From a virus: a DNA stretch of 58,634 nucleotides. A model generated the notes under the pieces. It saw nothing but the letters and a program-made list of their open reading frames with translations. It ran no database searches and was not told where the DNA came from. Below, one piece after another: positions 3,887-58,634 of the stretch. The stretch is from positions 1 through 58,634 of IMG/VR virus record IMGVR_UViG_3300033552_000007; one strand, given 5' to 3'. The stretch's first letter is position 1. Every line of letters starts with the position of its first letter. The translations under genes were made by a program, and so were the position numbers.

Positions 3887-3889
3887 TTT

Positions 3890-4036: not shown

Positions 4037-4038
4037 AT

Positions 4039-4548
4039 TCACCCTTTCGCTGGCGGTTGTGGCTGATCTATTAGAGCGCGGATAGCATCAGCAATATCAG
4101 CAGGGTGCGTAGATTTGTCTGCGTCATCACAAATTTTAGCCGCTTTCTCTAGTGCGTCACGTACTGTTTGCGGTTGTGGTGGTGCAAGGTAGACAGGTTT
4201 CCATACTGTGTTTGGTTCTTCAATCATCCAGTTTTTAAGATTATTTTCAAAGTTACCAAATTCATCAATATATCCAACTGGCTCACTATTCTGAGGTTGT
4301 GGTGGTGCAAGGTAGACTATGCGTCTAGGGTAAATGTCTTTTCGTAGGCTGTAAAAATCTGCGTGTACTGCTTGCCAAACTTCTGCCCTGTTGTAATCTA
4401 TTTCGTATATCGGCTCACTATTCTGCCTATTCGATAAATCAATGGTTGCGGTTAGTTGGGCCTCGTTTAGCATTAATGAACCATCGTCCGCAATGTCTTT
4501 GCAGTCAGTTGCACCACATTCTTTAGCAATATCTAAAACTGTTTTCAT
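4039..4548 (-). CDS. Hypothetical protein with internal repeat (169 aa)
   Basis: The N-terminal segment (1-35) is followed by two imperfect repeats, each starting QNSEP(I/V) and ending VYLAPPQPQ (about 42-86 and 86-127). A C-terminal helical part ends RALIDQPQPPAKG. Repeated 'EPV...LAPPQPQ' modules are seen in several phage early proteins with no assigned role. The repeat makes the gene prone to expansion or contraction. Confidence 0.6.
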   Translation of the reverse strand: MKTVLDIAKECGATDCKDIADDGSLMLNEAQLTATIDLSNRQNSEPIYEIDYNRAEVWQAVHADFYSLRKDIYPRRIVYLAPPQPQNSEPVGYIDEFGNFENNLKNWMIEEPNTVWKPVYLAPPQPQTVRDALEKAAKICDDADKSTHPADIADAIRALIDQPQPPAKG

Positions 4549-37599: not shown

Positions 37600-37667
37600 T
37601 GAAAAAACCACATATCTGCCAGCATCGTATTGAACAAATCTTTGCGTTTTACAAAAAAAGTACATGA
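37599..37667 (+). CDS. Micro-ORF between DUF1996 protein and hub (22 aa)
   Basis: A 22-codon frame starting MKKPHICQHRIEQIF overlaps the upstream stop (TAATG) and the downstream start (ATGA), filling the gap exactly. It probably couples translation of the hub gene. Any function of the peptide is unknown. Confidence 0.45.
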   Translation: MKKPHICQHRIEQIFAFYKKST

Positions 37668-39505
37668 CAACCTATGTGATTAATGCCTTCGGTGGAATGG
37701 TGCCGATGGCTTCACCACGTCTGTTAGATACGCGATATGCGACAAAAGCTGTCAATATCAATCTAACGTCTGGTGAGGCCAAGCCTTTACGCGCGCCATT
37801 GCAAATTGGTAACAATATTTTAAGCAAGGTGGGCGTTAAGAAAAGCATTTACCGCTTCGGCCAAGATAGAACCGAGCTTGATTATTGGTTTCACTGGCTA
37901 ACTGATGTGGACGTGGTGCGCGGTAGTATTGCAGACGATACGACAGAGCGCACCTATTTCACGGGTGACGGTGTACCAAAATACACCTATTCACCAATAG
38001 CGGTTCAAGGTGGAACGACCAATTACCCGTTTGCTTCATTTACGCTTGGTGTGATTAAGCCAGACTTGCAAACACTCAATTTAAGTGTGGCAAATCGTGT
38101 CGTTAATTCAATCTCTTTTTCTGGCACTACGGCAACGGCTTTAACGGCATTAGCGCATAAATTAATTACAGGTAGCAAAGCCAACACGTTTGGCGCGACT
38201 GATCCACTTTATAACGGCACGTTTACTGTCACGGTTATTTCGCCTACGCAATACAGCTACACCATGACGGCGGCACCTACAGCCAACGCCAATGGAATAT
38301 TGCGCATGAACTATGGCGGACTACCAGAAAGCCGCGTTTATGCGGTTTCGTATGTGTCTGCTTTAGGTGAAGAGGGCGCGCCAGCCATTACAAGCGGTTT
38401 TATTGAAGTGATCGGGGGCCAGATAGTCACGTTAAACAATATACCGACAGCACCAACAGGCAATTATAACTACGCTAAGAAACGTATTTATCGTACTGCT
38501 ACAGGTTCAGTGCAAACAACCTTGCAATTTGTGGGGGAGGTGGCGCTTGCTATCACTACATTTGTTGATGATAAAAACGGTACAGAGTTAGGCGAAGTTA
38601 TCCCTTCATTAGCTTATGAACAGCCGCCAGCTAATTTAACAAACTTAATCCAGTTCAGTAACGGCATGATGGCAGGCTTATCCGGCAATCAATGTTGTAT
38701 CTGTGTGCCGTATCAGCCGCACGCATGGCCGATTGCTGGGCGTTATTCATTCAACGTTAAGCCCGTGGCATTGGGTTCGTTCGGTAATTCGGTTGTAGTC
38801 TTAACCGAAGGCGTGCCAATTGTCTTAACCGGTTCAAGCTTTGATGCGATGTCAGAAGATAAGGTTAAGGTAGGCCAGCCGTGCGTATCATCGCGCAGCG
38901 TGGTTGAATTAGCCAATGGCGTGATGTGGGCCAGTAACGAGGGCCTAGCGTTTATGAGCAACAGCGGCTTTGAATTAGCCACTAAAACACGCTTTACTAA
39001 TCGTGAGTGGGCGCAATACAAGCCAACTACTATCCGTGCTTATCGCTGGGTGAATCGTTATGTGGGCTTCTACGATACAGGCTTAAAGCAAGGCGGCTTT
39101 GTATTTGATGCTTTTACCCTAGACTTCTTTGAGTTGGATTTTTACGCTACAGCAGGTTATACAGACCCACGAAACGGCGAGCTATACCTAGCCATTGGTA
39201 ACAATGTGCTAAAAATGGACGCCGGCGCTAACTTAAAAATGGAGTGGATCAGCAAAGAATTTGAATCAAGCAAGCCGATTAACTTAGCTTATGCCAAAGT
39301 AGTGGCCAGTGATTATCCTGCAACCTTTAATTTATACGCCGATAAAGCGCTTAAATTTACCAAGCAAGTGGCTAACGATCTGCCTTTTGCATTGCCAAGC
39401 GGCTATAAAACGTCTAACTATAAAATTGGCGTAGTCAGTCAATTTGAAGTTAAAGGCTTTGGCGCTGCTGAAAGTATGGAAGAAATCAAGCAGGCGGTTG
39501 AATAA
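37664..39505 (+). CDS. Tail hub-like / packaged-DNA stabilisation protein (613 aa)
   Basis: The N-terminus (INAFGGMVPMASPRLLDTRYA) and WFHWLTDVDVVRGSIADD, with later GLAFMSNSGFELATK and YRWVNRYVGFYD, match a widespread phage structural family. It occupies the slot of P22 gp10, the plug/hub below the portal. Residues 140-210 contain an inserted beta domain (VVNSISFSGTTATALTAL) also seen at the end of the upstream protein. A structural role is likely; the exact position is inferred. Confidence 0.6.
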   Translation: MTTYVINAFGGMVPMASPRLLDTRYATKAVNINLTSGEAKPLRAPLQIGNNILSKVGVKKSIYRFGQDRTELDYWFHWLTDVDVVRGSIADDTTERTYFTGDGVPKYTYSPIAVQGGTTNYPFASFTLGVIKPDLQTLNLSVANRVVNSISFSGTTATALTALAHKLITGSKANTFGATDPLYNGTFTVTVISPTQYSYTMTAAPTANANGILRMNYGGLPESRVYAVSYVSALGEEGAPAITSGFIEVIGGQIVTLNNIPTAPTGNYNYAKKRIYRTATGSVQTTLQFVGEVALAITTFVDDKNGTELGEVIPSLAYEQPPANLTNLIQFSNGMMAGLSGNQCCICVPYQPHAWPIAGRYSFNVKPVALGSFGNSVVVLTEGVPIVLTGSSFDAMSEDKVKVGQPCVSSRSVVELANGVMWASNEGLAFMSNSGFELATKTRFTNREWAQYKPTTIRAYRWVNRYVGFYDTGLKQGGFVFDAFTLDFFELDFYATAGYTDPRNGELYLAIGNNVLKMDAGANLKMEWISKEFESSKPINLAYAKVVASDYPATFNLYADKALKFTKQVANDLPFALPSGYKTSNYKIGVVSQFEVKGFGAAESMEEIKQAVE

Positions 39506-41796: not shown

Positions 41797-42225
41797 GTGA
41801 TTACAGGCAACCAAAAACAAGAGTATTTGGATATGTTTAACGCGGTATTGGGCCTTAATTTAGATCTGGCCGATTTAAAAATGCTGACTGATATTGACGC
41901 ACACGGCAAGCCATTAGCCGTAGTTGGGTTTTTTAACAGCAGTCAATACAACCTTGAAATGTCTATAGCCAGCGTTACCGGCTGGACGGGTACACGATTT
42001 TTTGCCAAAGCCTGTTTTGATTACGCCTTTAACCGTTGTGGCGCTATGCGTATTACTTGTTACGCGCGCGAAAGCAACGTGAAGTCTATCTACTTTCAAA
42101 CAAGATTAGGATTTAAACGTGAGTTTAGTGGAGTGCTAAAGCACTGGTTTGGTAAAGAAGATGGAGTTCAATTTTTCATGTTGAAAAAAAATTGTAAATG
42201 GTTAAAGGAAACTAAAAAATGTTAA
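41797..42225 (+). CDS. GNAT-family acetyltransferase-like protein (GTG start)
   Basis: This 142-residue protein shows the GNAT layout: beta strands around AVVGFFNSSQYNLEMSIASV, then WTGTRFFAKACFDYAFNRCG and the final ARESNVKSIYFQTRLGFKRE motif. Phage GNAT proteins next to internal virion genes are common and may modify host or virion proteins. The start is GTG at 41797; no ATG fits. Overlaps the next gene (ATG at 42219). Confidence 0.75.
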   Translation: MITGNQKQEYLDMFNAVLGLNLDLADLKMLTDIDAHGKPLAVVGFFNSSQYNLEMSIASVTGWTGTRFFAKACFDYAFNRCGAMRITCYARESNVKSIYFQTRLGFKREFSGVLKHWFGKEDGVQFFMLKKNCKWLKETKKC

Positions 42226-43391
42226 GAAATTGGGTATTAGAGATTGCGTTTTCATGGCTAACCAACTACATGGGCGAGTGTGGATTCATTTTATACAAAG
42301 GCCCAAAAGCGCCTAGGACTGATCCAAACGTTGGATTAGCCGCTTTAGAAAACGCCAAGCTAGGTAAAGAGTATTTAGACTTTACCAAGCAAAGCTATAA
42401 AGAGGACGCGCCTAACCGTGACCGTATTAACGCCCTTGCCATTGAAGTGCAAGAAGGCTTTATCAAAGACAGCAATCTTAATCGCACGGATGCCGAAGAT
42501 TACCGCAACTACAATCAAACAGTATTTAGGCCGCTTGAAAAAGACATTGTTAATAATGCCAATGAGTATGACACCGCAGGCAGGCGCGAAGCCGAAGCGG
42601 CCAAAGGATTATCCGATGTAAGGCAGTCGTTTGACAATCAGCGTGATATGACCATGCGCAATAACGAGCGCGCCGGTATTAATCCAAACAGCGGCAATGC
42701 CATGGCTTTGACACAGCAAATGGACGTGCAAGAAGCAATTGCTGGCGCGGACGCGATGAACAAAGGCCGCACCCGTGCCGAAATGACAGGCAACGCCATG
42801 AAAATGGACGCCGCTAGTTTAGGCCGCAATCTACCAAGCAACCAAGCACAGAGTATGCAAATGGCAGGGCAGGCAGCAACAGGCGCAGTCAATACCGAGT
42901 TTTCTAATTCAGCTAACAATCGTGCAGGTTTAAGCATTATTGGATCAGGTTATAACCGTGCCATGGAAGGCTACAGCCAACAAGCCAATATTTTACAGAA
43001 TCAATACAACGGCAAGGTGAGCGCTTACAACGCGCAACAATCGGGTGGCGGTTTAAGTGGCATTGGTTCAATCATTGGTGCAGGCGCCAGCCTTTATACA
43101 GCACTTAAAGACGGTGGCGAAGTTGAGCCGCAACCAGAAGGATTGGCCTTAGTTGGGCCTAACGAACCTATAGCGCATGAAGGTACGGGCGAAGTTGAAG
43201 GCGCCGGCACGCACACCAGCGATTCTATTCTAGCCAAGTTGAGCAATGAGGAATTTGTACTTAACGCTGGCACGCAAAAATTAAGCAAGGAACAGATTAT
43301 TGCAGCCGCTAAGAAAACAAAGTCAAGCGCTGGATTAAAGGTGCTTGAATCAATAAACAATGCAGGCTTAAAGTTCAGAGAGGCTAATTAA
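42219..43391 (+). CDS. Internal virion / ejection protein 1 (390 aa)
   Basis: A helical, alanine/asparagine-rich body (30-270) leads to a glycine-rich membrane-like segment (GGGLSGIGSIIGAGASLY). The C-terminal DGGEVEPQPEG ... GTHTSDSILAKLSNEEFVLNA pattern is typical of phage internal or pore-forming proteins. It sits in a block of three such genes, like the ejection genes of P22 or the internal core of T7. Confidence 0.65.
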   Translation: MLRNWVLEIAFSWLTNYMGECGFILYKGPKAPRTDPNVGLAALENAKLGKEYLDFTKQSYKEDAPNRDRINALAIEVQEGFIKDSNLNRTDAEDYRNYNQTVFRPLEKDIVNNANEYDTAGRREAEAAKGLSDVRQSFDNQRDMTMRNNERAGINPNSGNAMALTQQMDVQEAIAGADAMNKGRTRAEMTGNAMKMDAASLGRNLPSNQAQSMQMAGQAATGAVNTEFSNSANNRAGLSIIGSGYNRAMEGYSQQANILQNQYNGKVSAYNAQQSGGGLSGIGSIIGAGASLYTALKDGGEVEPQPEGLALVGPNEPIAHEGTGEVEGAGTHTSDSILAKLSNEEFVLNAGTQKLSKEQIIAAAKKTKSSAGLKVLESINNAGLKFREAN

Positions 43392-43392: not shown

Positions 43393-45258
43393 ATGGGCGG
43401 TTTTCTACAAGGATTAGGGCAGATTGCAGAAGGTGCAATGAAAGGTTTTGAATTTGCCGAGAACATGAAAGAAAAAGTATCAACACGTAGAGAAAAGGCC
43501 AGGCGTGCAGACGTTGAAAAGCAATCTAGGGAAGCCGCTAAAAATGGCGAGATCATTTACGAAGATTACGGCCAAAATATTCAATCAGCCGGCACACAGT
43601 TTGCCGCGCCTGCCGCAAAGCCTTCTGCTAATAGCGACTATTCAAGCAGCATGGGCGGCCTTGATTTTATGGACGGTGCCAACAGTGCGGACGTGCAAGT
43701 AACTGCCTTAAAAAATGGTGGCATGGTGCGGAAGTATGCCGAGGGTGGCTTAGTCAGTATGGCCGCAGACCCAGAAGGCGTTTCGTATAAAACGAATATG
43801 GCCGCAGGTTTAAGCGCTGTTCAACCGACTGAACCCGTACAGCAAGCCCAGCCGGCAGAACAAGCCGCCACTCAAGCCCCAGAAGGCCAAGGCGCGCAAC
43901 GTAAAATTGATTTTGGCCGCACGCAATCTAACAAGCTTAACGCCGCACGCGATAAAGCGCTTGAACTAGGCGACTTTGAATTAGCGTCTGAATATCAGCA
44001 AGCGGGTTTCACAGTGCGCGATAACTTGTTTAAAAAAGGCTTGCCCATGGCGCAGCAAGTATTTGCCAAAACGGGTGATGTAACTGGCTACATTAAGCTT
44101 TATAACGACACGCACGATGATGGTTATAACGTGCAAGGCCACACCCAAAACGCCGATGGTAGTTATGCCTTAAAAATGCGCCAACCAAACGGCAGTGTGC
44201 AAGATATGAATATGACATCAGAGGAAATGAATCAGATGGTGTATCAGTTAAGCAACCCAGCCGCGCGCCATGCCGGTGAAATGGAAGTGTTGCAACTCAA
44301 GGCCAAATTAAAAATAGAAACAGACGCAAAAGTTGATCAGAAAAATCGTGAAAATGTCACGCTTGGTAAAGACCAGAAATTAGTTAGTGGTGAAGGTAAA
44401 GAAATTGCAAGCAACATGGTATCTGGCAGCATGGAGGACGTAAAAACCGTTACAGGCGGCTACTTGAAAAAAGGCCCGAACGGACAGCCAGAATTTGTGC
44501 GCACGGATAACAAAGCGCCAACCGATTATGAGCTGTATCAACAAGACCCAGTTAAATACAAGGATTTTAAAAACTCGGGCAATAAAGGTGATGGCGGCAA
44601 ACAGCGAATGGATAATTACAAGTATCTAAACGAGTTGGCGGTAAATGAATTTGGTCAAACAAATGAATTAACTGGCAAGAAAGAAACCACGGAAGAAGTG
44701 CGAAAAATTACCCGTACAGCCCAACGATTGATTGACGCCAACCCTGACCTGCCGCCACAAACTATTCTTACTATCGCTAAAGACGGTAAAGATATTTTTG
44801 AGAAACGAAGGATGCCAAACGGCGAAATAGTAAAAGTGCAAGTGATTCAACATAATGGCGTCACTTACCCATACTCAAATGCAGTAGCCGAGCCGGTTAA
44901 GAAAACCGAAGCCAGCAAACCTAGCCAGCCAGCAACTAAAAGCGAAGCGCCTACTAAAGCGCTACCACCCGCACAGTTACGCCAAACCAAACCCGCCGGT
45001 TTAAGCGTAATGAGCGAAGCGCAAGCCGATGAAGTGATGACGCCAACAGCCAGCGCCCCAGACTTGCAAGCTAATGGTGATGAAACCAGAAAGGCGATGG
45101 ATGAATTGCGCCAAATGGGTACCGTGGATTTAATGAATCGTCAAAGAGATTTGCAAGGTTTAATCAAGTCTGGCCGAGCTAGTAAAGATGCCAAGATGAT
45201 GCTAGATAACGTTACCAAAATGCTAGAAATCAAACGATCAAAAGCGGCACTTAAATAA
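43393..45258 (+). CDS. Internal virion / ejection protein 2 (621 aa)
   Basis: The N-terminus (MGGFLQGLGQIAEGAMKGFE) is amphipathic, followed by a polar, low-complexity Gln/Ala region (about 135-175) and a long helical body. Sequence KNGGMVRKYAEGG resembles the tail of ejection protein 1. The start is one base after the previous stop. Probably released into the host envelope with the DNA. Confidence 0.6.
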   Translation: MGGFLQGLGQIAEGAMKGFEFAENMKEKVSTRREKARRADVEKQSREAAKNGEIIYEDYGQNIQSAGTQFAAPAAKPSANSDYSSSMGGLDFMDGANSADVQVTALKNGGMVRKYAEGGLVSMAADPEGVSYKTNMAAGLSAVQPTEPVQQAQPAEQAATQAPEGQGAQRKIDFGRTQSNKLNAARDKALELGDFELASEYQQAGFTVRDNLFKKGLPMAQQVFAKTGDVTGYIKLYNDTHDDGYNVQGHTQNADGSYALKMRQPNGSVQDMNMTSEEMNQMVYQLSNPAARHAGEMEVLQLKAKLKIETDAKVDQKNRENVTLGKDQKLVSGEGKEIASNMVSGSMEDVKTVTGGYLKKGPNGQPEFVRTDNKAPTDYELYQQDPVKYKDFKNSGNKGDGGKQRMDNYKYLNELAVNEFGQTNELTGKKETTEEVRKITRTAQRLIDANPDLPPQTILTIAKDGKDIFEKRRMPNGEIVKVQVIQHNGVTYPYSNAVAEPVKKTEASKPSQPATKSEAPTKALPPAQLRQTKPAGLSVMSEAQADEVMTPTASAPDLQANGDETRKAMDELRQMGTVDLMNRQRDLQGLIKSGRASKDAKMMLDNVTKMLEIKRSKAALK

Positions 45259-45270: not shown

Positions 45271-48200
45271 ATGGCTGAAACCAACCAACAGAAAGTTAGC
45301 AGGATTGCGGTTCAAGAAGGTGTTGATCCAGACTTAGCTTTACGAGTGGCAAGCACGGAATCAGGATTTAATAGCAATGCCGTTAGTCCAAAAGGTGCGC
45401 GCGGCTTGATGCAAGTTATGCCAGCTACTTATCAAGAAGTCATGGGGCCAGATTCAGACCCTAATAATGTTGATAACAATGTGACGGCTGGCCTACGTTA
45501 TTTAGCCAAGCAACTAAAAACATTCAAAGGTGATGAAAGATTGAGTTTGGCCGCTTACAATGCAGGCGCCGGTGCGGTTAAGAAATACGGCGGCATACCA
45601 CCATACAAAGAAACTCAAGATTATGTCGCCAAGATCACCGGCGGCAAAGCACGCGCTACACCCGCAAAGCAAGGATATGAAGTAATTGGCTATAGTGATA
45701 TTGATGGCAACGACATACCACTAGAAAATCCCGTCAAAAAATCCGCGCCAGTAGCCGCAAAGAAAGCCGCGCCTTATGAAGTTATCGGCTATGAAGAAAT
45801 TGAAGCGCCAGCGCCAGCCGTTGCGCCGGTTGCGGAATCAGCCAATGCGACTTATGGCGACCGTGCAAAAGACTTGGGCATATCTACCGTTCAAGGCGTG
45901 GTTGATGTTGGACAAGCCGCTGTAGGTTTAGGTGATATTGTCAGTGGTGGACGAATTGGTAAACTGGCAGAGCAAGCCGGCGTAAAGTTTGAAGAAACCG
46001 ATCAAATACTTGAAGGCTTAAAATCAACCGCAGGCCAAGCCGACAAAGCCGCTTTAGATAATGCGCAAGGCTTTACTGATACCGCAAAAACTATTGTACA
46101 AAATCCAAACATTATCCCAAACGCGATTACGCGCACCATCCCTAGTATTTTAGGCGGTAGCGGAATTGCAAATGCTTTAGTTAAGCTAATGCCAAAAATC
46201 GGCGCAATCGCCGCAGGGGCAATCGGTGAAGGCGTTATTGGCGCAGGTAGTCAAGCAGAAGGCATCCGTTCGCAAACAGACGATGGATTAATCACGCCTA
46301 CGCAATCCGCATTATCGGCAGCAACAGGATTATCAACAGCCGTTATTTCAAGATTTAGCGGAAACTTTGCACAAAAGCTTGGCATTAAAGACATTGATAA
46401 TGTTTTAGTGAATGGTAGCGCCGAGCAAGTAGACGAAATAGTTAAAAAGTCACTAGGTCGCAAGTTGGTAGAAGGTGGTTTTACTGAATCTGTATTAGAA
46501 GAAATGCCGCAATCTGGCATTGAACAAATGCTATCTAACGTAGCGCTTGATAAACCAATTATGGAAGGTGTTGCAAAATCCGCCGCAATCGGTGGATTAA
46601 CAGCCGCCCCAATGGGTGCTGGTGCGCAATTAATTCCACAAGCACCAGCAATCCCCCAAACACGCGGCCAACGCATTATTGCTGAACTTAAAGCCCGTCA
46701 ATCTGGCCAGCCAGCAAGCACTGTTATTGCTGATGAAGTAATACCAGCCAGCCCAGCCAACCCTAGCGAATCAATTAACGCAGCCGATTTATTAGAGGAT
46801 GATAATGTCAGCAACACTGAACAAGGAGCCGCTAGTATTTTGGATAGCGGAATCGCTGGAAATGGGCGTGATAACCCAAGCGGAAGCGCAGTTAATGCAG
46901 TTAATGACGTTAATGGAATACGATCACCCGATATTGGACAGACCGTATCAAGCAATCTGCCTACTGGAAATGCCAACAGTGCAAATAGTCCACTAGACAA
47001 TCCAACGCCAGAGCCAAAAGCAACACTGGACGCACAAACTACCGCCTTTATCGAAGGCACTAAGCCAGCTTTACTAATTACCGAAGGCGAGGCATTACCG
47101 CAGAATCTACCAAATGACATTAAAACGGCTGTTATCCCTAATCGTGGCACACTTATTTATCGTGATGATATTAGCTTACAACAAGCGCTTAACGGCAATA
47201 TGGGCGAAGCTTTAGGTTATGGCATTAACGAGAAGCCAGCACAGCCCACAAGCGTTGTAACAGCGCGTGACGCTAACGGCACAGTCATTCAAGACGTTGC
47301 AACCGATGGCCGCCAAAGTGTGATTGATGCGGCAACGAAAGTAGCGGGCAATGGTACGGTTGAAGTTAGGCCGATTGAAGCGGCACTGGCAGAGCGTGAA
47401 GCAGGAGTTAAGGCCGCAGAAACGCCCGTTGGCAATATTGAAACGCCCGTTGGCATTGAAAATATGCCTAATGTGCCTAACATAACTAATAACCCAATAG
47501 TATCAAATACTTATTTAGGAAGTTCTGGCCGCCTAAAAACGCCTAAAATTGCCCAATCTGATTTAACACAACCAGCAACACCTGTTAAACCCAAAAAGCC
47601 AGCCAAGAAAGCAGGCACACTCTTAGCTACATTACGCGATATTGGCGGCATTGCACTTACTGATAAGCGCGATGTTACCGGCGAAGATAAGCGCTTTATT
47701 GGTGGTGGTTACAATCAAATATTCAAGGGCAGCGCCAAACAAACCTTGCGCGGCGCCATTGAAAGCGGCTTGCTTGATGAATTTTTACCTTACAGCATGC
47801 GCTTGTCTGCACAAACCGCAGATAGTGAAGCGTATGATTCAACAGAAGCGTATGATTACTTAGCGGATAAAATTCGCAACGGTACTCGCACGTTATCTTA
47901 TGAAGCCGAGCAAGAGCTTGAGCAAAAACGTTACGATGAAAAAACCGACACACAAGCCGCCGTTGATTTAATTGCCGAAGAATTTAATGAGGATGAAATA
48001 AATGCAGAACTCCAAATCGCAGGGTACAACGAAAGAGAAGCTCAAAGCCTGGCTACAGACTTTGACGCCAGCAACGAGGATTCAAGTGTTGAAAGCGGCA
48101 CTGGAAGCCAAGCAAGCGAAAAAACCGAAAGCTTAACCAAAGATCAGGCAGATGGCTTTGTAAAAGTAGCCGCAGATTCAATTAAAACATTACGCAAGCA

Positions 48201-51200
48201 AGATGTTGAGCGCGTATTGGACGAAACGCCATCTAAGTACAGAAAAGAATTAGCAGCCTACATTACAAAAAACCGTAGTGATTTAGCCGAAGAAGTAGCC
48301 GATATTGAGGCAGAAGCCCCCGCTTTAGAACTTCAAGGCCAAACTAACGCCGAAATTGAAGCCGACATAAAAGCTACACGCGACCGTGAAGTCAAAGCCG
48401 CAGCCGATGAAGCCAAAGCCAAATCCGCAAAAGACGCGGAAGATTTAAAAACCCAGCAAAAGAAAAATGCCAACGAACGCCCGTTTGAGTTTGGCGAAAA
48501 CATCAAAGACGTTAAGCAAGCGGTTAAAGCTGGCAGTGAGGATATGTTCACGCTGGATGAAAAGAAAAAGGATGAACCAGCCGCACCAGTTGATGCCAAA
48601 GTAAAACAGGCGCAAGATGATTTAGACGGAGCATTAAGTGACTTAGGCAGTATTTTTGGCAAGTCTTTACGCAACAATATCACCCCAGAACAAGAGCAAA
48701 AGTTAATACCAGTATTAACACGCGTATTTGATGCCGCCTTTAGACTTGGTTACTATGAATTTAAAGCGGCGGCTAAATTTGTACTTGATACAATTAGGAG
48801 TAAGATAAGTGAAGAGGTTGCGGATATTGTCACGATTGACCAGTTGCAAGGTGCGTATATCAGCATGGCTGGCAAGTACGGCGACCAAGCAACTAAAAAA
48901 CGTGATGTAGTTAATATTGAAAGTATTGAAGAGTTACAGGAGAGCGATAATGTCAATGACAAGCGTAGCAGCGCCAATTTGGAATCAGATAGCGGACAGC
49001 CAGAGCCTACAAACGGCATGGGCGCGCAGAATGTTCAAGATGGACGGAATGAAAATAGCGGAAGCGGAAAACAAAGAGTATCAAACGCTGAAAACGAAAG
49101 TGATGCCCAAGGTAGCAACAGCTTATTTGACAGTCAAACCATTGTTACTGGAGAACGTGGCAATAGCGAAATTTACACAGGAAAATCCCCAACACAAAGC
49201 GGCCTTGCTAGAGATAGTGACAATCGCGGAAGCGGTGACGGTAGCTTCACAGGAACACCGATTGAACCGCCAGCAACAGAAGGACTTAACGGAACTACTC
49301 AAAGCGGATTATTCGCGCTAAGTGCCAAGCCATTACAGGCCGAAGCTGACCGCGTAGAGCAAAATACAACGCTTGATAATATACGTGAAACGTTGCCACT
49401 ACTGCAAGCTGGCCAACAAGAGGACGTATTTAAAGCCGAAACGCGCTTTGCTGAACCTAAAGGGTTCGGCATGTTATTTACCAACGGAACGGGTACAGGT
49501 AAAACCTTTACAGGGTTGGGCGTAGTAAAACGCTTTGTAAATTCTGGTAAGAAAAATGTATTAATCATTGCCCCCAATGACAAAATTATTGAAGATTGGC
49601 AAAACACAGCCAAACTATTCAATATCACGGCTAATCGCTTAGAAACCACAAATGATGCTGGACGCGGTGTAGTCATCACCACTTATTCAAACATGGGTAA
49701 CAACCTAACGCTTGCTGATCGCAATTGGGATTTAATCGTCCATGATGAAGCGCACTACTTGGCGATGGATAAAGACGGTACAAATACTAACGCACTTAAA
49801 ACGTTGCGCGCCATTACCCAGCACCCGCAAGGCGTTTTTACAAGAACAGAAATGCTACACCGAGATTTGCGCGCAAAAATAACCGCGCTGTATGAAGAGA
49901 AAAAAACGCTTACGATTGCCGCCGCAAGTGATGAACGCAATTATCCAAAACTTGAAAAAGTAGAAGCAGAGATTGAAGCGGCCAACCTTAAATGGAGTGC
50001 GGTGAGTGAGGCCGTTAAAGAAAAAGTAAAAGCCAACCAAGGCGAAGGCCGACCACGCGCATTATTCTTATCGGCCACACCGTTCGCGTATGAAAAAACA
50101 GTGGATTGGGCAAACGGCTATTTGTTTGATTATGACGCTGGCAAAGAACAGGATGGAGCAAGCGGTACGGGCAATAGGTCTTATAACACTGGCAGCAACC
50201 GCGATCAGTTTATGATGCAGAACTTCGGTTATCGCATGCGTTACAACAAGCTAACCGAGCCAGACGCCAAAGTAAACCGTGGTTTAATGCAACGCCAATT
50301 TAATACTTCGCTTAAAAAAGCAGGTACTTTATCGGGCCGCATGCTGGACGTTGAAGCCGATTATGACCGTAAATTTGTATTGATTGATTCTGCTATTGGC
50401 CGCCGCATTGATGAAGCTCTTGGATGGTTTAGAGAAAAGCGAGATTCACTAAAAACTAGTGGCTTAGTAAACCCGCGCGCCAACGCTTATAGCGATGTAG
50501 AAAAAATCATTTCTGACCAGTTTGATTACTTGTCACGCCGTTATTTGTTGGAAGCTATTAAAGCCAAAGAAGTGGTTGTGCATGTTAAAGAACACATGGC
50601 GCTTGGCCGCAAAGTGGTTGTATTCCATGACTACAAGAAAGGCGGCGGCTTTAACCCGTTTAATATTTCAGCGCGCTCTATGGGCCAAGATTGGACAACA
50701 AGCGGCGACACCCAAGCCATTAACGAAATAATTGAAGAGTTTAAATCCGAGTTTAAAGATTTAATCAATGCGCCAGATTTTAAATCATCTTCACCTATTG
50801 ACACGTTTAAACAAGCGTTCCCCGGTGTATTGCTATTTAACGGCGATGTACCAACAAAAGTACGCCGCGCCAATGTCGCTAAATTCCAAGACGATGCCAG
50901 CGGCCCACAAGTAATTTTAGTGCAATCAGCCGCAGGCAAAGAAGGCATTAGCTTACACGATACAACGGGCAAGCATGCGCGCGTATTGTTTAACTTAGGC
51001 CAACCAACGCAGCCGACAACTTCTATTCAGCAAGAGGGCCGCATTTATCGTACAGGGCAAGTAACAGACGCCATGTTCAGATACTTAAACACAGGTACAA
51101 ATTGGGAGCGCTGGGCGTTTGCCACAACGATTGCACAACGCGCCAGCGCCGCCGAGAACTTAGCGCTTGGCGAACAAGCGCGCGCATTAAAAGACGCCTT

Positions 51201-54200
51201 TATTAGCGGCTTTGAAGAATCAGACAGTTATCGTGCTGGTATGGAAAACGAAGGCAAGGGCGGTAAAGAACGTGACAAAGCCGCCAATGAAGCCTTAACC
51301 GAGTATGACCGTGCAAAAGCTTTTTACTACGGCACGCAAAAGAAAAACAGCAAGACCAAAGCCCAAGAGGGCGCTGATTACTTTGCCACACCAGAGCCAG
51401 TAGGCTTGAAAATGGTTGAGCTTGCCGACATTCGCCCAGGCGAAAAAGTGTTAGAGCCAAGCGCAGGACACGGCGCAATTGCAAGATGGTTCCCAGAAGG
51501 CGCAGACAAAACCGCGATTGAGCCTAGCAGCTTCTTACGCCCACGTTTGGCTATGGTATTTGATGGCGCTATCAATAGCGGTGATTTTGAAGATTTAAAC
51601 ACAATCAATAAATACGATGCCATTGTTATGAACCCGCCGTTTGGTACGGCTGGCAAGACAGCAATTGACCACATGGCTAAAGCCTCCAAGCACTTGAATG
51701 ACGGTGGCCGCATTGTGGCGCTTATTCCAGTAGGTTCAACCGATAAGAAATTTGATAAATGGTTTTATGAAACTGAAACTCGCCCGTTAAAACCTATTTT
51801 TGAAAAAGACGGCATGCAAGTGTTTGCCGGTGACACTGTAAAAATGGCTGGCTTTGGTAAAGACTATGAAATTAAAGACGTAGTTATTGACGATATTAGA
51901 GGCACGCAATTTTTTAGAACCAAAGGACAGTCAAAAGATAACGGTATAAATGCAGTAGCGCTTAAATCTGTTGATAAAATTGGTAAACGTACCGAAGAGT
52001 TTAGCCCCACAAAAGGCTTTACATTGGTTGCTGATATAAAGTTACCAAGCGTTACATTTGAGCGCGCTGGCACTGCCGTTAATACGCGCATTGTGGTAAT
52101 TGAAAAGTCAGAGAGCGCGCCGCAAATATCAAACCGTGATTACACGGACGTTACTGATATTAACGAATTGTTTGATCGTATGGAAACACTTGAAATTCCA
52201 GCGCGCGCGAAAGCCAAAGAAGCTGATAACGAAACTGACGCGGCCCCAGCACGCACAACCGGAAGCGAGGCTACACGCCAGAACGATCAAGCCGCGCGCG
52301 AACGTGATGCAAAGGCACTAGAAAGCGGTGCGATTGCGCAAGGGGGCGAGGCAGTTACATTTAAAATTGAAGGTGATAAGTTAATAACAAATGCGCCAGC
52401 CCAAACGATAACAACGTCCAAAGGCAAAGAGCTTGAAGGCGTATTTATTACTGATTCAAGTATTGGTTTATCTGCAATTAAAGAGGTAGATAGATTCACA
52501 TACTATGCAAAAGGCAAAGGCGCTGGCTACTTTGTGCGCTTACGCCATGTAGTGCGCCCAACGAGTGATGATGTTTCATTCAGCAACGCCGGCGCCCCCA
52601 CTTTCTACAGCGCATTAACGCGCGCCATTGATGCCATTCAAACGAAGAAAGCCGACCCTGTTATGTGGAAAGGTTTAATTAAAAACCTTGCACAAAAAGG
52701 CGTTAAGCCTGATGAAATTGAATGGACGGGGGTAACTGATTGGCTGGACTTGCAAACAGGCGCCGTGACTAAAGAGCAAGTGTTGGATTACTTGAATAGT
52801 AATGGCGTTGAAGTTAGCGAAACGATGCTTGGGAAAGATACAGGCACGACAGACCAAGACGTTATTGATTTTCAAGGGATTGAATCTACTGAATGGGCAG
52901 ATGCTAGTAATTCACAGCGCGATGAATGGCGTGAAGAGTTCTACAGTCAATCATCAATGTACGCGCCTGCAACCAAATACAGCCAATACACCGTACCAGG
53001 CGGCACGAACTACAAAGAGTTGTTGTTGACGTTGCCAGAAAAAGCGCCACCAAAATCTATTGTTGAATGGACTGAAAGAATTGCTGGTGAATGGAACGCT
53101 GATGCAGATGGTAGACAGTTTGGCATACTTGAAGAAGATAATAATTCTTTCTACGTGTATGAAAAAGATGGTGCATTAGGTAAAAAAGTAAAGAGCCTTG
53201 ATGACGCTAAATTGCAAGTTGAAAGCGCACTTGTAAAAAATAAAACTACCAAATATAAATCATCCCACTTCGATCAAGCCAACATACTAGCCCACGTCCG
53301 TTTTGACGAAAGATTAGATGCAGACGGTAACAAGGTTTTGTTTATTCACGAACTGCAATCGGATTGGTCTAGTGATGGGCGAAAAAAAGGATTTGTACGC
53401 ACATTATCTAATGTTGAAAAGGCGCGTAGTAAAGAGTTATCTAAAAAAATGGATGACTACATTACTGAAAATGGATCGCTTAAAGCCCAGCGCAATCGTT
53501 ATGGATTAAGTGAAACTGAATTATCTGAATGGTCTTTATTAGATATTCAAGACAAAGGAGAAGGCGTACCACGCGCACCATTCGTTGAAAAAACTGACGC
53601 ATACCTAGCTTTAGCCCTTAAACGCATGATGCGCTACGCAGCCGAAAACGGCTTTAATAAGGTGGCTATTATTAACGGGCAACAGGCCGCCGACCTTTAT
53701 GACCTTAGTAAACAGGTTGATAAAATTCGTGCTTTCAAAAGACCAGAAGGCACATACTTTATTACAGCAGATGGCAGAACACTATCTGATGAAATGAAGG
53801 AATCAGAACTTGAAGGCGCTGTTGGTAAAGATTTAGCAACAAAGATTATCAATGGTGATAATAAAAAATCTGACGGCTTTCAAGAATTTAAAGGTGTTGA
53901 CCTAAAAGTAGGCGGAGAGGGCATGCGGTTTTTTTACGATACTCTTGTGCCAAAAGTAGCCAAAGACGTACTCAAGAAAGTGGGCGGTAGTGTTGAAACT
54001 ATTAGCTTGTCTTCTGGAAAAGAAATCTATGCAATTATAAACAAAGTTACTGGTAATGAAATAGGTGGTGGTTACACCTTAAAGCAAGCTCAAGATAAAG
54101 TTAATAACGACCCAGACAATAAGTATGAATATTACAAAGTATCTGGCGGTGAAAACGCACAAACAGGCTTCACCATAACCCCCGATATGCGCAACAAAGT

Positions 54201-57200
54201 AATGCAAGGATTGCCGCTATTCAGCCAAGGCACCGGCACAGGCGGCCTTTTAATAGACGACATAAAAGCCGCCATCGCTAACGACATTTACGGCCAAGAG
54301 GTAGACATTTACCCAACTATGATGGACGCGCCAATATACGTGCAAACGCAGGCATTAAGCGAACGTAAGTTTGGTATTGAGGGCTTCTATGATAAACGTA
54401 CTAACCGAGTTGCATTAATCGCCAGCAATCTAAGCAGCATTAAACGTGCTAAAGAAGTGGCGCGCCATGAGCTAATCGGACATTACGGCATGGAAAACAT
54501 GCTTAACGATGCAGACCCTAAACTATTATCAAAACTGTTAAACCGTGTTTTATTTGCAGAAAAAAGCGGCAATAAACAAATTATTGAGATCGCTCAATAC
54601 GTAGATGAAACACAGCCTAATTTAAGCGAACAACGCCGCGCCAAAGAGATTATCGCGGTAATGGCCGAGCGCAATATTCAAAACAGTATTACTAAGCGCG
54701 TGATTGATGCAGTGCGTTTATTCTTGAAGAAAATAGGCTTTATTAAAAGCGATGTAACAGACGCTAAGATTGCAGGCTTATTGCGTGATGCGCAGGTTTA
54801 CTTGAAAGGCAAAGGTAGAAGCTTAGTTGAACCTACTATGCAGGCCAGTTTTAGCAATAACGCCACCAAAGACATACCAGATGCCATTATCTTAAATCCA
54901 CTTGGCACAGCAAAAAACGATACCGATTATGAGGCTGCAAAAGCAGGGGATGTAGTGGCCGCAACGCGACTTGCTAAAAAATTAATTACTAATGATGTAA
55001 TTAAACAATTGAAAGAGCAGATTAAAAATGCTGATTTAGTTGTTGGCGTTACTTCTATTGAACAAAGCGGAAAAAATGCGTTGCCAGAAGCGGCGGCTAT
55101 TTTAATTGCAGACAAACTGTCTCTAAAATACGATGAAAACTTATTGCAATTAGTGTCGCCCAAACGTACTGGCATGAGTGGGATGGACAGAATATTTAAT
55201 CGCCCTGTATTTGAAGGTGATGTACAACCTAACGCAAGTTATATTTTAGTAGACGATACCATTACACAAGGCGGCACATTTGCTGCGATGACTAATCGTA
55301 TTAATGAAGGCGGAGCAAATGTCATTGCTAATATTGCATTGACAGGCAAAGATTATAGTAGCAAGATTGCAATATCAGACAGCATGCTAGAAAAAGTACG
55401 TAGTCAATTTGGTGATTTAGAAAATGAATTTAGAGCGATTACAAAATACGGATTTGAAGGCCTTACTCATAGCGAAGCACGGTTCGTTACGCTTGGAAAC
55501 GCTCCTGACAAATTCCGAGATAGAATCATTGCTGAAACTAAAAAGGCGGCGAGCAATACAAATACGTCTACTGCTAAAGCAGGACAAGACGTAAGTTTTA
55601 GTAACAATCCAACGCCGCCTACGGGTGGCGTTTTCACGTCACAACAGCCCTTAAATCCTAACTTTGAAATCCCGCAAACAAGCAAGCTAGATAACGTACT
55701 GCGCAGCGTGCAAGACAAGAACATTGACTTGAAGCGCGTGACAGCTAACATCAAGAAAAGCATTGGCGATATTTCAGATAACATCAATGCCTACTTGCAA
55801 GAAGAGCTTTATCACGGACGCGCGGCCAAACGTACACAAGACTTTCTCAATAATGAATTGAACCCATTAATTACAGCCATGCAAACGCGTGGTGTGACCA
55901 TGGCGGACTTTGAGGAATACTTATGGGCCAGACACGCCGAAGAACGCAATATTCAGATCGCTAAAGTCAATCCAAAAATGCCAGACCGCGGCAGTGGTTT
56001 AACGACTAAAGAGGCTAACGACTACCTTAACAGTTTAAGCGCTGGCCAAAAACGCAACTTTGAAGCATTGGCCGCCAGAGTGGACGCCATTACCAAAGGT
56101 TCGCGCCAAGTGTTAGTTGATTACAATTTAGAATCAGCCGGCACAGTGTTATCCATGGAAGGCGCTTATAAAAACTACGTGCCGTTAATGCGTGAAGATA
56201 TGGATATGGGTTTCGGCCAAGGTACTGGCCAAGGCGTTAGCGTTAAAGGTAATAGCAGCAAGCGTGCAACCGGTTCTAATCGTGCCGTGGTGGATATTCT
56301 GGCCAACATCGCCCAGCAACGTGAGCGCAACATTATTCGTGGTGAGAAAAATCGCGTGGCTACGGCCCTTGTTGGCCTTGCCAAAACGAATCCTAATAAA
56401 GACTTCTGGCAAGTTGATGTGCCGCCAACCATTACCGATATTAACAAAGCCACTGGCATGGTTGAGGTGCGCATTGACCCTAATTACAAAAATCGTAATA
56501 ACGTGGTTGTGGCCCGTATTGCCGATAAGAAAGGCAACATTCAAGAACGCGCCGTGGTATTTAGCGAGCGCAACGAGCGCGCCGTTAAGATGGCATTGAA
56601 TCTTAAAAACTTGGATCAAGACCAATTGGGTGTCGTGTTAAGCAATGCCGCGGTAATAACGCGCTGGTTCTCTAGTATTAACACGCAATACAACCCGATG
56701 TTCGGCGTAGTCAATATTATGCGTGATGTACAAGGCGCGCTGCTTAACTTGAGTTCAACGCCATTGAAAGGCATGCAAACTAAGGTATTGGCTGAAACGG
56801 CTAAAACCATTGGGCCGTTGTATGCTGAAATTCGCGCCATTCAGAAAAACGGCAAGTCTACTAATACGGACGTGGCCAGGCTGTATGAGGACTTTCAGCG
56901 CGAAGGCGGCAAAACAGGTTACCAAGATATGTTCCGCAACGCCGAAGAGCGTGGCAAAGCCATATCAAAAACGCTTGATCCTAATTGGTGGCAAACAACC
57001 AAGCTAGGTAAAGTGGTTTCGTTAAACGGCTTATTAGCTACGCCAGAACAATGGTTAATGCAAAAGCCAGTTAAGTTAATCTTTGATTGGCTGTCTGACT
57101 ACAACGAGGCGTTAGAAAACACAGTGCGCCTAGCGACTTACAAAGTTGGTTTGGATAAAGGATTAAGTAAACAACAAGCCGCCAGCGTTGCTAAAAACAT

Positions 57201-58329
57201 CAGTGTAAACTTTAACCGTAAAGGTACAGTTGGCGCGCAAGTAGGTTCGCTATATGCCTTCTTTAATGCGTCCGTGCAAGGTTCGGCCCGTATTGCTGAA
57301 ACGTTGATGGTAAACGATAACGGCAAGCTATCATTAAGCAAAACTGGTAAGAAAATTATTAGCGGTGGCTTATTGCTAGGCGCTATGCAAGCAATCGCCA
57401 TGGCAATGGCTGGCTTTGATGATGACGAACCGCCAGAGTTTGTGCGCGATAGAAACATCATTATCCCGTTATCCGGTGGCAAGTACGTGGCTATTCCTAT
57501 GCCATTAGGTTTCAATGCGATCCCGTCTATTGGACGCATCATGACTGAATGGGTGTTAAGTGGCGGCGAAGATACAGGCGGACGCGTAGTTCACATTCTG
57601 GACGTATTGTTAAACGTGACTAACCCGATTGGTAACGCTGGGCTTTCTATTCAAACGGTTGCACCTACTTTGATTGATCCATTGGTGGCTTTATCAGAAA
57701 ACAAAGACTTCACCGGCAGAAAGATTGCCAAAGAGGACTTTAACTCTAAGAATCCAACACCAGGCTATAGCCGTGCTAAAGATACGGCCAGCCGATTCTC
57801 TACAGGTATTGCGTACTTTATCAATAGCGCAACGGGTGGCAATAAGTACCGTGAAGGCGCCATTAGCCCAACACCAGACCAGATTGATTATTTATTTGGC
57901 CAAGTGACCGGCGGCGTAGGCCGTGAAGGTAGCAAGATAATTGGTGCGTTAGATTCTCTTGCTATTGGCGAAGATATACCCAACTACAAAAAACCGTTAA
58001 TAGGTAAATTTTACGGCAACGCAAAGAATAACGATGCAGAGCGCACCACTTACTATGACAACGTAGTGGAGTTAAATAAACTTGAGCTTGAATATAAAGG
58101 ACGCTTAGAAAGCAAAGACGAGCTAGACGAATTTAAGACGGACAATCCAAAGGTTAAAGCGATTATGCTGGGTAACAATACCGATAAGATTGTGACTAAA
58201 TTAGTCAAGCAACGTAAACAGTTGCAAGCCAGCGGCGCATCATCAGATCGTATCAAACAAATTAATGAATTGATTGCGTTGAAAATGAAGCGATTAAACG
58301 AGGCCGTTAGAAAAATAGAAGCCGAATAA
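45271..58329 (+). CDS. Giant polyvalent virion protein: transglycosylase-helicase-methyltransferase-zincin-PRTase (4352 aa)
   Basis: Domains in order. Lytic transglycosylase, 14-124 (TESGFNS, ARGLMQVMP, LAAYNAGAGAV). YEVIGY repeats, ~136 and ~168. Hydrophobic segments, 290-334 and 437-457. Superfamily-2 helicase: Walker A GTGTGKT ~1406, DEAH 1492-1495, GKEGISL ~1890, QQEGRIYRTGQ ~1920. N6-adenine methyltransferase: LEPSAGHGA ~2060, NPPF 2121-2124. Large polyvalent-associated region with HELQSDW ~2693. Zincin motif HELIGH 3066-3071. Phosphoribosyltransferase-like loop ILVDDTITQGGT ~3325. C-terminal LPD38-like region ~3790-4150 with a membrane segment (4030-4051). Helicase plus methyltransferase resembles P1 DarB, which protects injected DNA from restriction. 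The transglycosylase would open the wall as T7 gp16 does. The open frame is unbroken. Confidence 0.85.
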   Translation: MAETNQQKVSRIAVQEGVDPDLALRVASTESGFNSNAVSPKGARGLMQVMPATYQEVMGPDSDPNNVDNNVTAGLRYLAKQLKTFKGDERLSLAAYNAGAGAVKKYGGIPPYKETQDYVAKITGGKARATPAKQGYEVIGYSDIDGNDIPLENPVKKSAPVAAKKAAPYEVIGYEEIEAPAPAVAPVAESANATYGDRAKDLGISTVQGVVDVGQAAVGLGDIVSGGRIGKLAEQAGVKFEETDQILEGLKSTAGQADKAALDNAQGFTDTAKTIVQNPNIIPNAITRTIPSILGGSGIANALVKLMPKIGAIAAGAIGEGVIGAGSQAEGIRSQTDDGLITPTQSALSAATGLSTAVISRFSGNFAQKLGIKDIDNVLVNGSAEQVDEIVKKSLGRKLVEGGFTESVLEEMPQSGIEQMLSNVALDKPIMEGVAKSAAIGGLTAAPMGAGAQLIPQAPAIPQTRGQRIIAELKARQSGQPASTVIADEVIPASPANPSESINAADLLEDDNVSNTEQGAASILDSGIAGNGRDNPSGSAVNAVNDVNGIRSPDIGQTVSSNLPTGNANSANSPLDNPTPEPKATLDAQTTAFIEGTKPALLITEGEALPQNLPNDIKTAVIPNRGTLIYRDDISLQQALNGNMGEALGYGINEKPAQPTSVVTARDANGTVIQDVATDGRQSVIDAATKVAGNGTVEVRPIEAALAEREAGVKAAETPVGNIETPVGIENMPNVPNITNNPIVSNTYLGSSGRLKTPKIAQSDLTQPATPVKPKKPAKKAGTLLATLRDIGGIALTDKRDVTGEDKRFIGGGYNQIFKGSAKQTLRGAIESGLLDEFLPYSMRLSAQTADSEAYDSTEAYDYLADKIRNGTRTLSYEAEQELEQKRYDEKTDTQAAVDLIAEEFNEDEINAELQIAGYNEREAQSLATDFDASNEDSSVESGTGSQASEKTESLTKDQADGFVKVAADSIKTLRKQDVERVLDETPSKYRKELAAYITKNRSDLAEEVADIEAEAPALELQGQTNAEIEADIKATRDREVKAAADEAKAKSAKDAEDLKTQQKKNANERPFEFGENIKDVKQAVKAGSEDMFTLDEKKKDEPAAPVDAKVKQAQDDLDGALSDLGSIFGKSLRNNITPEQEQKLIPVLTRVFDAAFRLGYYEFKAAAKFVLDTIRSKISEEVADIVTIDQLQGAYISMAGKYGDQATKKRDVVNIESIEELQESDNVNDKRSSANLESDSGQPEPTNGMGAQNVQDGRNENSGSGKQRVSNAENESDAQGSNSLFDSQTIVTGERGNSEIYTGKSPTQSGLARDSDNRGSGDGSFTGTPIEPPATEGLNGTTQSGLFALSAKPLQAEADRVEQNTTLDNIRETLPLLQAGQQEDVFKAETRFAEPKGFGMLFTNGTGTGKTFTGLGVVKRFVNSGKKNVLIIAPNDKIIEDWQNTAKLFNITANRLETTNDAGRGVVITTYSNMGNNLTLADRNWDLIVHDEAHYLAMDKDGTNTNALKTLRAITQHPQGVFTRTEMLHRDLRAKITALYEEKKTLTIAAASDERNYPKLEKVEAEIEAANLKWSAVSEAVKEKVKANQGEGRPRALFLSATPFAYEKTVDWANGYLFDYDAGKEQDGASGTGNRSYNTGSNRDQFMMQNFGYRMRYNKLTEPDAKVNRGLMQRQFNTSLKKAGTLSGRMLDVEADYDRKFVLIDSAIGRRIDEALGWFREKRDSLKTSGLVNPRANAYSDVEKIISDQFDYLSRRYLLEAIKAKEVVVHVKEHMALGRKVVVFHDYKKGGGFNPFNISARSMGQDWTTSGDTQAINEIIEEFKSEFKDLINAPDFKSSSPIDTFKQAFPGVLLFNGDVPTKVRRANVAKFQDDASGPQVILVQSAAGKEGISLHDTTGKHARVLFNLGQPTQPTTSIQQEGRIYRTGQVTDAMFRYLNTGTNWERWAFATTIAQRASAAENLALGEQARALKDAFISGFEESDSYRAGMENEGKGGKERDKAANEALTEYDRAKAFYYGTQKKNSKTKAQEGADYFATPEPVGLKMVELADIRPGEKVLEPSAGHGAIARWFPEGADKTAIEPSSFLRPRLAMVFDGAINSGDFEDLNTINKYDAIVMNPPFGTAGKTAIDHMAKASKHLNDGGRIVALIPVGSTDKKFDKWFYETETRPLKPIFEKDGMQVFAGDTVKMAGFGKDYEIKDVVIDDIRGTQFFRTKGQSKDNGINAVALKSVDKIGKRTEEFSPTKGFTLVADIKLPSVTFERAGTAVNTRIVVIEKSESAPQISNRDYTDVTDINELFDRMETLEIPARAKAKEADNETDAAPARTTGSEATRQNDQAARERDAKALESGAIAQGGEAVTFKIEGDKLITNAPAQTITTSKGKELEGVFITDSSIGLSAIKEVDRFTYYAKGKGAGYFVRLRHVVRPTSDDVSFSNAGAPTFYSALTRAIDAIQTKKADPVMWKGLIKNLAQKGVKPDEIEWTGVTDWLDLQTGAVTKEQVLDYLNSNGVEVSETMLGKDTGTTDQDVIDFQGIESTEWADASNSQRDEWREEFYSQSSMYAPATKYSQYTVPGGTNYKELLLTLPEKAPPKSIVEWTERIAGEWNADADGRQFGILEEDNNSFYVYEKDGALGKKVKSLDDAKLQVESALVKNKTTKYKSSHFDQANILAHVRFDERLDADGNKVLFIHELQSDWSSDGRKKGFVRTLSNVEKARSKELSKKMDDYITENGSLKAQRNRYGLSETELSEWSLLDIQDKGEGVPRAPFVEKTDAYLALALKRMMRYAAENGFNKVAIINGQQAADLYDLSKQVDKIRAFKRPEGTYFITADGRTLSDEMKESELEGAVGKDLATKIINGDNKKSDGFQEFKGVDLKVGGEGMRFFYDTLVPKVAKDVLKKVGGSVETISLSSGKEIYAIINKVTGNEIGGGYTLKQAQDKVNNDPDNKYEYYKVSGGENAQTGFTITPDMRNKVMQGLPLFSQGTGTGGLLIDDIKAAIANDIYGQEVDIYPTMMDAPIYVQTQALSERKFGIEGFYDKRTNRVALIASNLSSIKRAKEVARHELIGHYGMENMLNDADPKLLSKLLNRVLFAEKSGNKQIIEIAQYVDETQPNLSEQRRAKEIIAVMAERNIQNSITKRVIDAVRLFLKKIGFIKSDVTDAKIAGLLRDAQVYLKGKGRSLVEPTMQASFSNNATKDIPDAIILNPLGTAKNDTDYEAAKAGDVVAATRLAKKLITNDVIKQLKEQIKNADLVVGVTSIEQSGKNALPEAAAILIADKLSLKYDENLLQLVSPKRTGMSGMDRIFNRPVFEGDVQPNASYILVDDTITQGGTFAAMTNRINEGGANVIANIALTGKDYSSKIAISDSMLEKVRSQFGDLENEFRAITKYGFEGLTHSEARFVTLGNAPDKFRDRIIAETKKAASNTNTSTAKAGQDVSFSNNPTPPTGGVFTSQQPLNPNFEIPQTSKLDNVLRSVQDKNIDLKRVTANIKKSIGDISDNINAYLQEELYHGRAAKRTQDFLNNELNPLITAMQTRGVTMADFEEYLWARHAEERNIQIAKVNPKMPDRGSGLTTKEANDYLNSLSAGQKRNFEALAARVDAITKGSRQVLVDYNLESAGTVLSMEGAYKNYVPLMREDMDMGFGQGTGQGVSVKGNSSKRATGSNRAVVDILANIAQQRERNIIRGEKNRVATALVGLAKTNPNKDFWQVDVPPTITDINKATGMVEVRIDPNYKNRNNVVVARIADKKGNIQERAVVFSERNERAVKMALNLKNLDQDQLGVVLSNAAVITRWFSSINTQYNPMFGVVNIMRDVQGALLNLSSTPLKGMQTKVLAETAKTIGPLYAEIRAIQKNGKSTNTDVARLYEDFQREGGKTGYQDMFRNAEERGKAISKTLDPNWWQTTKLGKVVSLNGLLATPEQWLMQKPVKLIFDWLSDYNEALENTVRLATYKVGLDKGLSKQQAASVAKNISVNFNRKGTVGAQVGSLYAFFNASVQGSARIAETLMVNDNGKLSLSKTGKKIISGGLLLGAMQAIAMAMAGFDDDEPPEFVRDRNIIIPLSGGKYVAIPMPLGFNAIPSIGRIMTEWVLSGGEDTGGRVVHILDVLLNVTNPIGNAGLSIQTVAPTLIDPLVALSENKDFTGRKIAKEDFNSKNPTPGYSRAKDTASRFSTGIAYFINSATGGNKYREGAISPTPDQIDYLFGQVTGGVGREGSKIIGALDSLAIGEDIPNYKKPLIGKFYGNAKNNDAERTTYYDNVVELNKLELEYKGRLESKDELDEFKTDNPKVKAIMLGNNTDKIVTKLVKQRKQLQASGASSDRIKQINELIALKMKRLNEAVRKIEAE

Positions 58330-58409
58330 GAGCTTCAACAATAGCAACAACAATAATCGCCCACAGTACAAACAGTAATAATTGACCCATTCCGAAATAA
58401 TACTTTAAC

Positions 58410-58433
58410 AAGCCGCCATTGTGCGGCTTTTTT
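58410..58433 (+). terminator. Intrinsic terminator after the giant gene
   Basis: AAGCCGC-CATTGT-GCGGCTT followed by T. It separates the giant gene from the zinc-finger/endolysin/spanin group; antitermination would be needed to express lysis genes from the late promoter. Confidence 0.8.
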
Positions 58434-58454
58434 ATGGCCAAAAGAAAGGTAAAA

Positions 58455-58634
58455 ATGAACGTAGACGATAGCGCAACCCAACAAGAGGAATTTGCGCGCG
58501 AAGCAGCATTAAAACATCGCAAACCAGAACTGCCAAAAATAGGCATTTGCTACAACTGTAACGAACCGGTTAAATCAAACGCCAATTACTGCGACAAAGA
58601 TTGTAGGTTAGATCATGAGCGCCGCACTGAAAAC
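58455..58634 (+). CDS. Small zinc-finger protein, N-terminal part (continues at position 2)
   Basis: The start at 58455 follows AAAGAAAGG. The protein begins MNVDDSATQQEEFAREAALK and runs off the window end. Joined across the circle it is 65 residues with CYNC...YC...DC cysteines, ending at 142. See the C-terminal entry at 2-142. Confidence 0.75.
   Translation, partial: MNVDDSATQQEEFAREAALKHRKPELPKIGICYNCNEPVKSNANYCDKDCRLDHERRTEN
58508..58634. repeat. Terminal direct repeat, copy 2 (circle overlap)
   Basis: Identical to bases 1-127; see copy 1. Confidence 0.95.

Follow-up and report, generated by a model that had tools for sequence, protein, structure and literature searches.

Polyvalent proteins of the phage type, as described by Iyer (2017), are encoded near virion genes and combine peptidoglycan enzymes such as lysozyme, a methyltransferase–helicase dyad, zincin, phosphoribosyltransferase (PRTase), and LPD domains; they are predicted to be injected, and LPD38 is listed among them as phage-only (PMC5512222). 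DarB of phage P1, for which others have shown both anti-restriction and presence in the virion, is packaged through an N-terminal signal at ~40 copies per virion, is believed to be delivered by P1, and is treated as a component of defense against restriction, not as an entry factor (PMC9024508). The 3764-aa protein of Serratia phage Parlo was published with an N-terminal transglycosylase, a helicase, and a methyltransferase, and was termed a DarB homologue (PMC6606913). CSP3 orf43 was described with the same three domains (PMC10269572), and for JC1 gp69, a homologous protein of 4515 aa, mass spectrometry of CsCl-purified virions detected 51 unique peptides (PMC9144972). For neither JC1 (PMC9144972) nor CSP3 (PMC10269572) was an equivalent of the P1 helpers DarA or DdrB reported.

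Here, we examined a viral record of 58,634 bases, referred to as the window, which carries a giant polyvalent protein gene of its own. The original prediction, made from the sequence, had claimed one unbroken 13-kb frame of 4352 residues. The ORF proved to be intact, and from its base composition the chance of zero stops across 4352 codons is ~e^-266. Each of the claimed motifs (Walker A, DEAH, NPPF, HELIGH, and a PRPP loop) was present at its place; Pfam SLT, ResIII, Helicase_C_4, and LPD38 bore out the proposed transglycosylase, DEAH helicase, and C-terminal virion region; and the domain searches on which the helicase, methyltransferase, and PRTase calls hung all gave matches. Along the chain, the order is SLT, helicase, methyltransferase, an unnamed domain that we call EIQSDW, zincin, PRTase, and a C-terminal LPD38 region, with the domains backed by HMMs, conserved motifs, and a structure model. 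PADLOC matches (mad2, PbeA, ShosT, and MTase_II) were at domain level only.

Features of the giant gene and its late-gene neighbors in the window
Feature	Position	Strand	Residues	Basis or remark
Internal virion / head closure protein gene	37664..39505	+		phrog_511
GNAT-type acetyltransferase gene	41797..42225	+		Pfam Acetyltransf_3, E=0.0023
Virion structural protein gene	42219..43391	+		phrog_8003
Giant polyvalent protein gene	45271..58329	+	4352 aa from ATG	Intact ORF; homologous giant ORFs
SLT lytic transglycosylase domain	45289..45660	+	7-130	Pfam and PDB matches
Ala/Gly-rich region	45835..46737	+	189-489	Common to other giant phage proteins
Low-conservation stretch	46768..48567	+	~500-1099	No family matches
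Region ahead of helicase	48568..49377	+	1100-1369	Kept in close relatives only
SF2 helicase/translocase, SNF2/Strawberry-notch type	49378..51330	+	1370-2020	Pfam, PDB profile
N6-adenine methyltransferase	51331..52206	+	2021-2312	PHROGs; HMM built here
Short conserved module 3' of methyltransferase	52267..52584	+	2333-2438	HMM built here, 51 ORFs
Unnamed EIQSDW domain	52570..54234	+	2434-2988 (555 aa)	Conservation, AlphaFold model
Zincin-like metallopeptidase	54253..54834	+	2995-3188	HELIGH at aa 3066 (position 54466)
ComF/APRT-type PRTase	54871..55485	+	3201-3405	PHROG, Foldseek
C-terminal virion-type region	55648..58305	+	3460-4345	LPD38 at 57424-57996

Gene neighborhood and comparison with named phages

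Terminase, portal, major head, internal virion, and structural genes lie upstream of the giant gene, which is preceded by the GNAT gene and then two further late genes. The second of these (43393-45258) gave zero matches in the phage collection searched. The GNAT aligns with counterparts from Parlo, ZX1, Skulduggery, and Atu_ph08, and the block of GNAT, virion protein, and giant genes recurs, apart from small insertions, in Parlo, Skulduggery, and BcepIL02. The terminase large subunit is encoded in two adjacent ORFs, with the ATPase part at 18871-19605 and the nuclease part at 19605-20393, which may reflect either a genuine split or a frameshift. A late protein in the tail-gene region (35515-37599) combines DUF1996 (E=1.8e-21) with a bacterial Ig-like domain. 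A temperate phage is suggested by integrase, RecT, and YqaJ genes at the left of the record. Also at the left end is a weak CHAP-type endolysin candidate (142-624), while the giant gene reaches almost to the right end (58329-58634). As lysis genes come after the giant gene in Parlo and BcepIL02, the record could represent a circularly permuted genome whose opening point lies between the giant gene and the endolysin candidate.

The same order of SLT, helicase, methyltransferase, and zincin is seen in the counterparts from Parlo (gp81), Klebsiella phage ZX1, and Pseudomonas phage Skulduggery, which show 43-45% identity over a ~950-aa core and are likewise encoded after GNAT and virion genes; with HMMs built here, neither a PRTase nor EIQSDW nor a C-terminal region like that of the giant protein was found in them. 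BcepIL02 gp70 has SLT, methyltransferase, helicase, LPD3, and LPD38. It shares with the giant protein an SLT N-terminus (43% identical), the zincin and LPD38 ends, and the joining of methyltransferase and helicase in one chain, but its methyltransferase precedes the helicase, its core gives no BLASTP alignment, and it contains LPD3. No PRTase or EIQSDW match was found in the Bcep22-like giant proteins (BcepIL02 gp70, JC1 gp69, and CSP3 orf43).

P1 DarB likewise joins an adenine methyltransferase and an SNF2-type helicase in one packaged protein, but it is 2255 aa long with the opposite domain order. SLT, zincin, PRTase, and LPD38 were not found in it, and it gave no BLASTP alignment with the giant protein. 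DarB proper follows the order LPD36, methyltransferase, helicase; in the giant protein the helicase comes first and LPD36 is undetected, so we regard it as DarB-like in make-up and not as a DarB orthologue. It fits among polyvalent proteins, which combine at least two disparate activities per polypeptide: SLT, helicase, methyltransferase, zincin, and PRTase are joined here, the gene lies downstream of portal, major head, internal virion, and structural genes, and LPD38 supplies a phage-only domain. Like the Bcep22 and Parlo proteins, it is a late protein within 3700-4700 aa having an N-terminal transglycosylase with a methyltransferase and a helicase. The virion-type polyvalent character originally proposed, with its DarB-like pair, agrees with the slot syntenic with BcepIL02 and Parlo and with the JC1 homologue in virions (PMC9144972).

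Comparison with the Iyer architectures, which the original prediction had recommended, finds the PRTase, zincin, and helicase–methyltransferase modules already catalogued there (PMC5512222). The differences are that LPD36 is undetected before the methyltransferase here and that EIQSDW has no Pfam name. PRTase domains have likewise been described in phage polyvalent proteins (PMC5512222). The claim that the chain matches no described protein is for the most part wrong: the transglycosylase–helicase–methyltransferase(–zincin) series is known from Parlo (PMC6606913) and CSP3 (PMC10269572), and the claim holds only for the addition of PRTase and EIQSDW to an SLT–helicase–methyltransferase–zincin chain, for which no match was found in the named phages. 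What is new here is this exact combination, with PRTase and EIQSDW added, and the breadth of EIQSDW.

The N-terminal third and the helicase–methyltransferase core

Pfam SLT matched at aa 13-116 (E=1.9e-25), and the same domain aligned with PDB lytic transglycosylases (E=2e-11) so that their ES motifs coincided; the catalytic Glu, in ESGF, is conserved. The Ala/Gly-rich region that follows (~300 aa) is also conserved, with ~39% identity to the 'PLxRFG' proteins of F116/H66. Searched against PHROGs, it matched PHROG 30335 (E=2e-46) and, weakly, phrog_2206 (N4-type virion RNA polymerase) and phrog_10089 (DarB-like). Neither this region nor EIQSDW had been in the domain list of the original prediction. 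Profile searches found no families in the low-conservation stretch, over which relatives align little, and the region ahead of the helicase was matched by BLASTP/phmmer in loci L002, L003, and L006.

The helicase carries Walker A (GTGTGKT) at aa 1406 (position 49486) and DEAH at aa 1492 (position 49744). Pfam ResIII matched at aa 1393-1505 (E=7e-13) and Helicase_C_4, the Strawberry notch C-terminal family, at aa 1864-1981 (E=1e-8), and the helicase profile matched the SNF2/Rad54-family PDB entry 1z63 (E=2.6e-7). In the methyltransferase, the TP motif (FATPEP) and NPPF at aa 2121 (position 51631) are intact and conserved. Its assignment as an adenine methyltransferase was weak in Pfam (MTS, E=0.0014) and strong in PHROGs, where DNA methyltransferases matched aa 2023-2170, and the HMM built here also retrieved P1 DarB (E=4e-10).

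The EIQSDW, zincin, PRTase, and C-terminal modules

Twenty residues of the EIQSDW domain are invariant among 70 sequences. At least 538 related stretches occur in IMG/VR, and at the collected loci the domain is carried by 94 ORFs, the majority >1000 aa. Scattered weak matches aside, no Pfam or NCBIfam family was found across the 70 members. The AlphaFold model was confident (pLDDT 83.7, pTM 0.77), and no PDB entry matched it at E<=0.001; GNAT or acyl-CoA-binding folds made up about two-thirds of the top 50 PDB matches, with E values of 0.2-1.6. Significant matches in BFVD were large phage proteins, several of which have polyvalent-type domain annotation. Profile comparison with the GNAT family of the record itself and with GNATs of two bacterial genomes gave no support for EIQSDW being a GNAT (hhalign probability ~1% or lower, below significance), a negative made weaker by some GNAT rows being in wrong frames; a GNAT identity therefore remains a lead. 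A tentative reading, about which we are more doubtful than confident, is that EIQSDW represents an enzyme family still lacking a name, perhaps built on a GNAT-like acyl-CoA core, that is found in hundreds of giant phage proteins, is delivered at infection, and modifies host targets. Being widespread and confidently folded, with no significant PDB match, EIQSDW is the part most worth pursuing and holds most of the interest.

The zincin HMM built here matched 51 ORFs, and the metalloprotease call made from HELIGH is sustained by HExxH and a downstream Glu, both invariant in 15 aligned sequences. In the adjoining PRTase, the PRPP loop ILVDDTITQGGT lies at aa 3325 (position 55243), and the region matched PHROG 22413 (E=8e-53). 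We modeled aa 2990-3440 using AlphaFold (pLDDT 84, pTM 0.56), and the best Foldseek match to this model was Helicobacter pylori ComF (7p0h, E=5e-6), followed by many APRT and OPRT structures and by ShosT. Because of these matches, the predicted PRTase fold, already suspected in the original prediction, is strongly supported. A VDDTxTQGGT-type loop and an Arg (KRT) are kept in five PRTase sequences, which gives the DD motif and conserved Arg that PRTases of invasive elements have in common with ComFC; we read the Arg of KRT as the conserved Arg of that description.

Within the C-terminal region, Pfam LPD38 matched at aa 4052-4242 (E=1e-39). The region is 26% identical over 815 aa to BcepIL02 gp70 and 43% identical to Methanosarcina virus MetMV (MK170447.1, locus L102), in which it forms part of a 3002-aa protein that also has a zincin. 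As the archaeal host of MetMV was assigned by computed predictions only (PMC7164591), a bacterial host is worth reconsidering.

Proposed action and modularity of the family

Considered as one whole, the locus is probably best explained by a DarB-like giant polyvalent protein that would be packaged and ejected with modules directed at the wall, DNA, and host, and the best reading places it with the DarB-like giants of Bcep22/Parlo/Lastavirus-type short-tailed phages. We infer injection and anti-restriction from the homologues. As the domain order is reversed relative to P1 DarB and BcepIL02 and the cores give no BLASTP alignment, the proposed anti-restriction is an argument from analogy and from the common methyltransferase family. 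The protein would be made late and packaged in the head alongside the DNA; on infection it would be ejected into the cell, and the N-terminal transglycosylase would open the peptidoglycan. The Ala/Gly-rich and C-terminal LPD38 regions may serve packaging or passage. The helicase–methyltransferase pair would track along the entering DNA, methylating or masking it so that restriction fails, and the zincin could cut the chain, allowing the PRTase and EIQSDW modules to act separately. Ejection, this order of events, self-cleavage, and these roles of the PRTase, EIQSDW, Ala/Gly-rich, and LPD38 regions are thus all put forward as predictions. So read, the protein would add a well-resolved case of phages placing enzymes for entry through the wall, for protecting DNA, and for acting on the host in a single packaged chain.

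The helicase–methyltransferase pair might instead act mainly as a motor for DNA internalization, drawing the genome in as a translocase, with methylation secondary or regulatory. This would suit a wall-cutting domain in the same chain and the weak match of the N-terminal region to the N4-type virion RNA polymerase giants, which are ejected, but the methyltransferase has kept its motifs intact and they are conserved, and P1 DarB, in which these two activities also occur together, is assigned to anti-restriction and not to entry (PMC9024508); we consider such a motor unlikely. It is quite improbable that the protein is not ejected and has a structural or assembly role, its transglycosylase serving lysis or assembly and its enzymes acting in the producing cell, given JC1 gp69 in purified virions (PMC9144972), the believed delivery of the related DarB by P1 (PMC9024508), the injection predicted for phage-type polyvalent proteins (PMC5512222), and the separate endolysin candidate in the window. 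A fusion of several genes by assembly or annotation, which the extreme ORF size might bring to mind, is refuted by homologous single ORFs in dozens of genomes of other viruses and prophages, isolate phages among them.

Of the loci collected in scans with the helicase–methyltransferase core, 53 came from bacterial genomes and 40 from IMG/VR. The 51 complete non-redundant relatives span 2172-6028 aa (median 3770), and helicase and methyltransferase are present in all 51, a constancy that comes in part from the search itself, since that core was used to retrieve them. Other modules vary: 34 of the relatives have a zincin, 31 the C-terminal region, 12 an SLT domain, and 8 EIQSDW. The family thus displays its modularity, with a helicase–methyltransferase core and exchangeable ends. 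By the HMM built here, SLT is present in only 12 of the 59 N-complete relatives, so wall cutting is not essential in the wider family. We rejected the idea of an invariable N-terminal wall enzyme, as Pfam SLT was found in 8/45 relatives and a glucosaminidase in 1/45, making such an enzyme optional.

Locus L064 has nearly the same module set as the giant protein, without the PRTase. A PRTase occurs together with the helicase–methyltransferase core in loci L052 and L153, and with a zincin in L184, L185, and L186, in differing orders. The giant proteins of L185 and L186 have the Ala/Gly-rich region, PRTase, and zincin with no helicase or methyltransferase match, which suggests that the PRTase–zincin pair travels as a unit.
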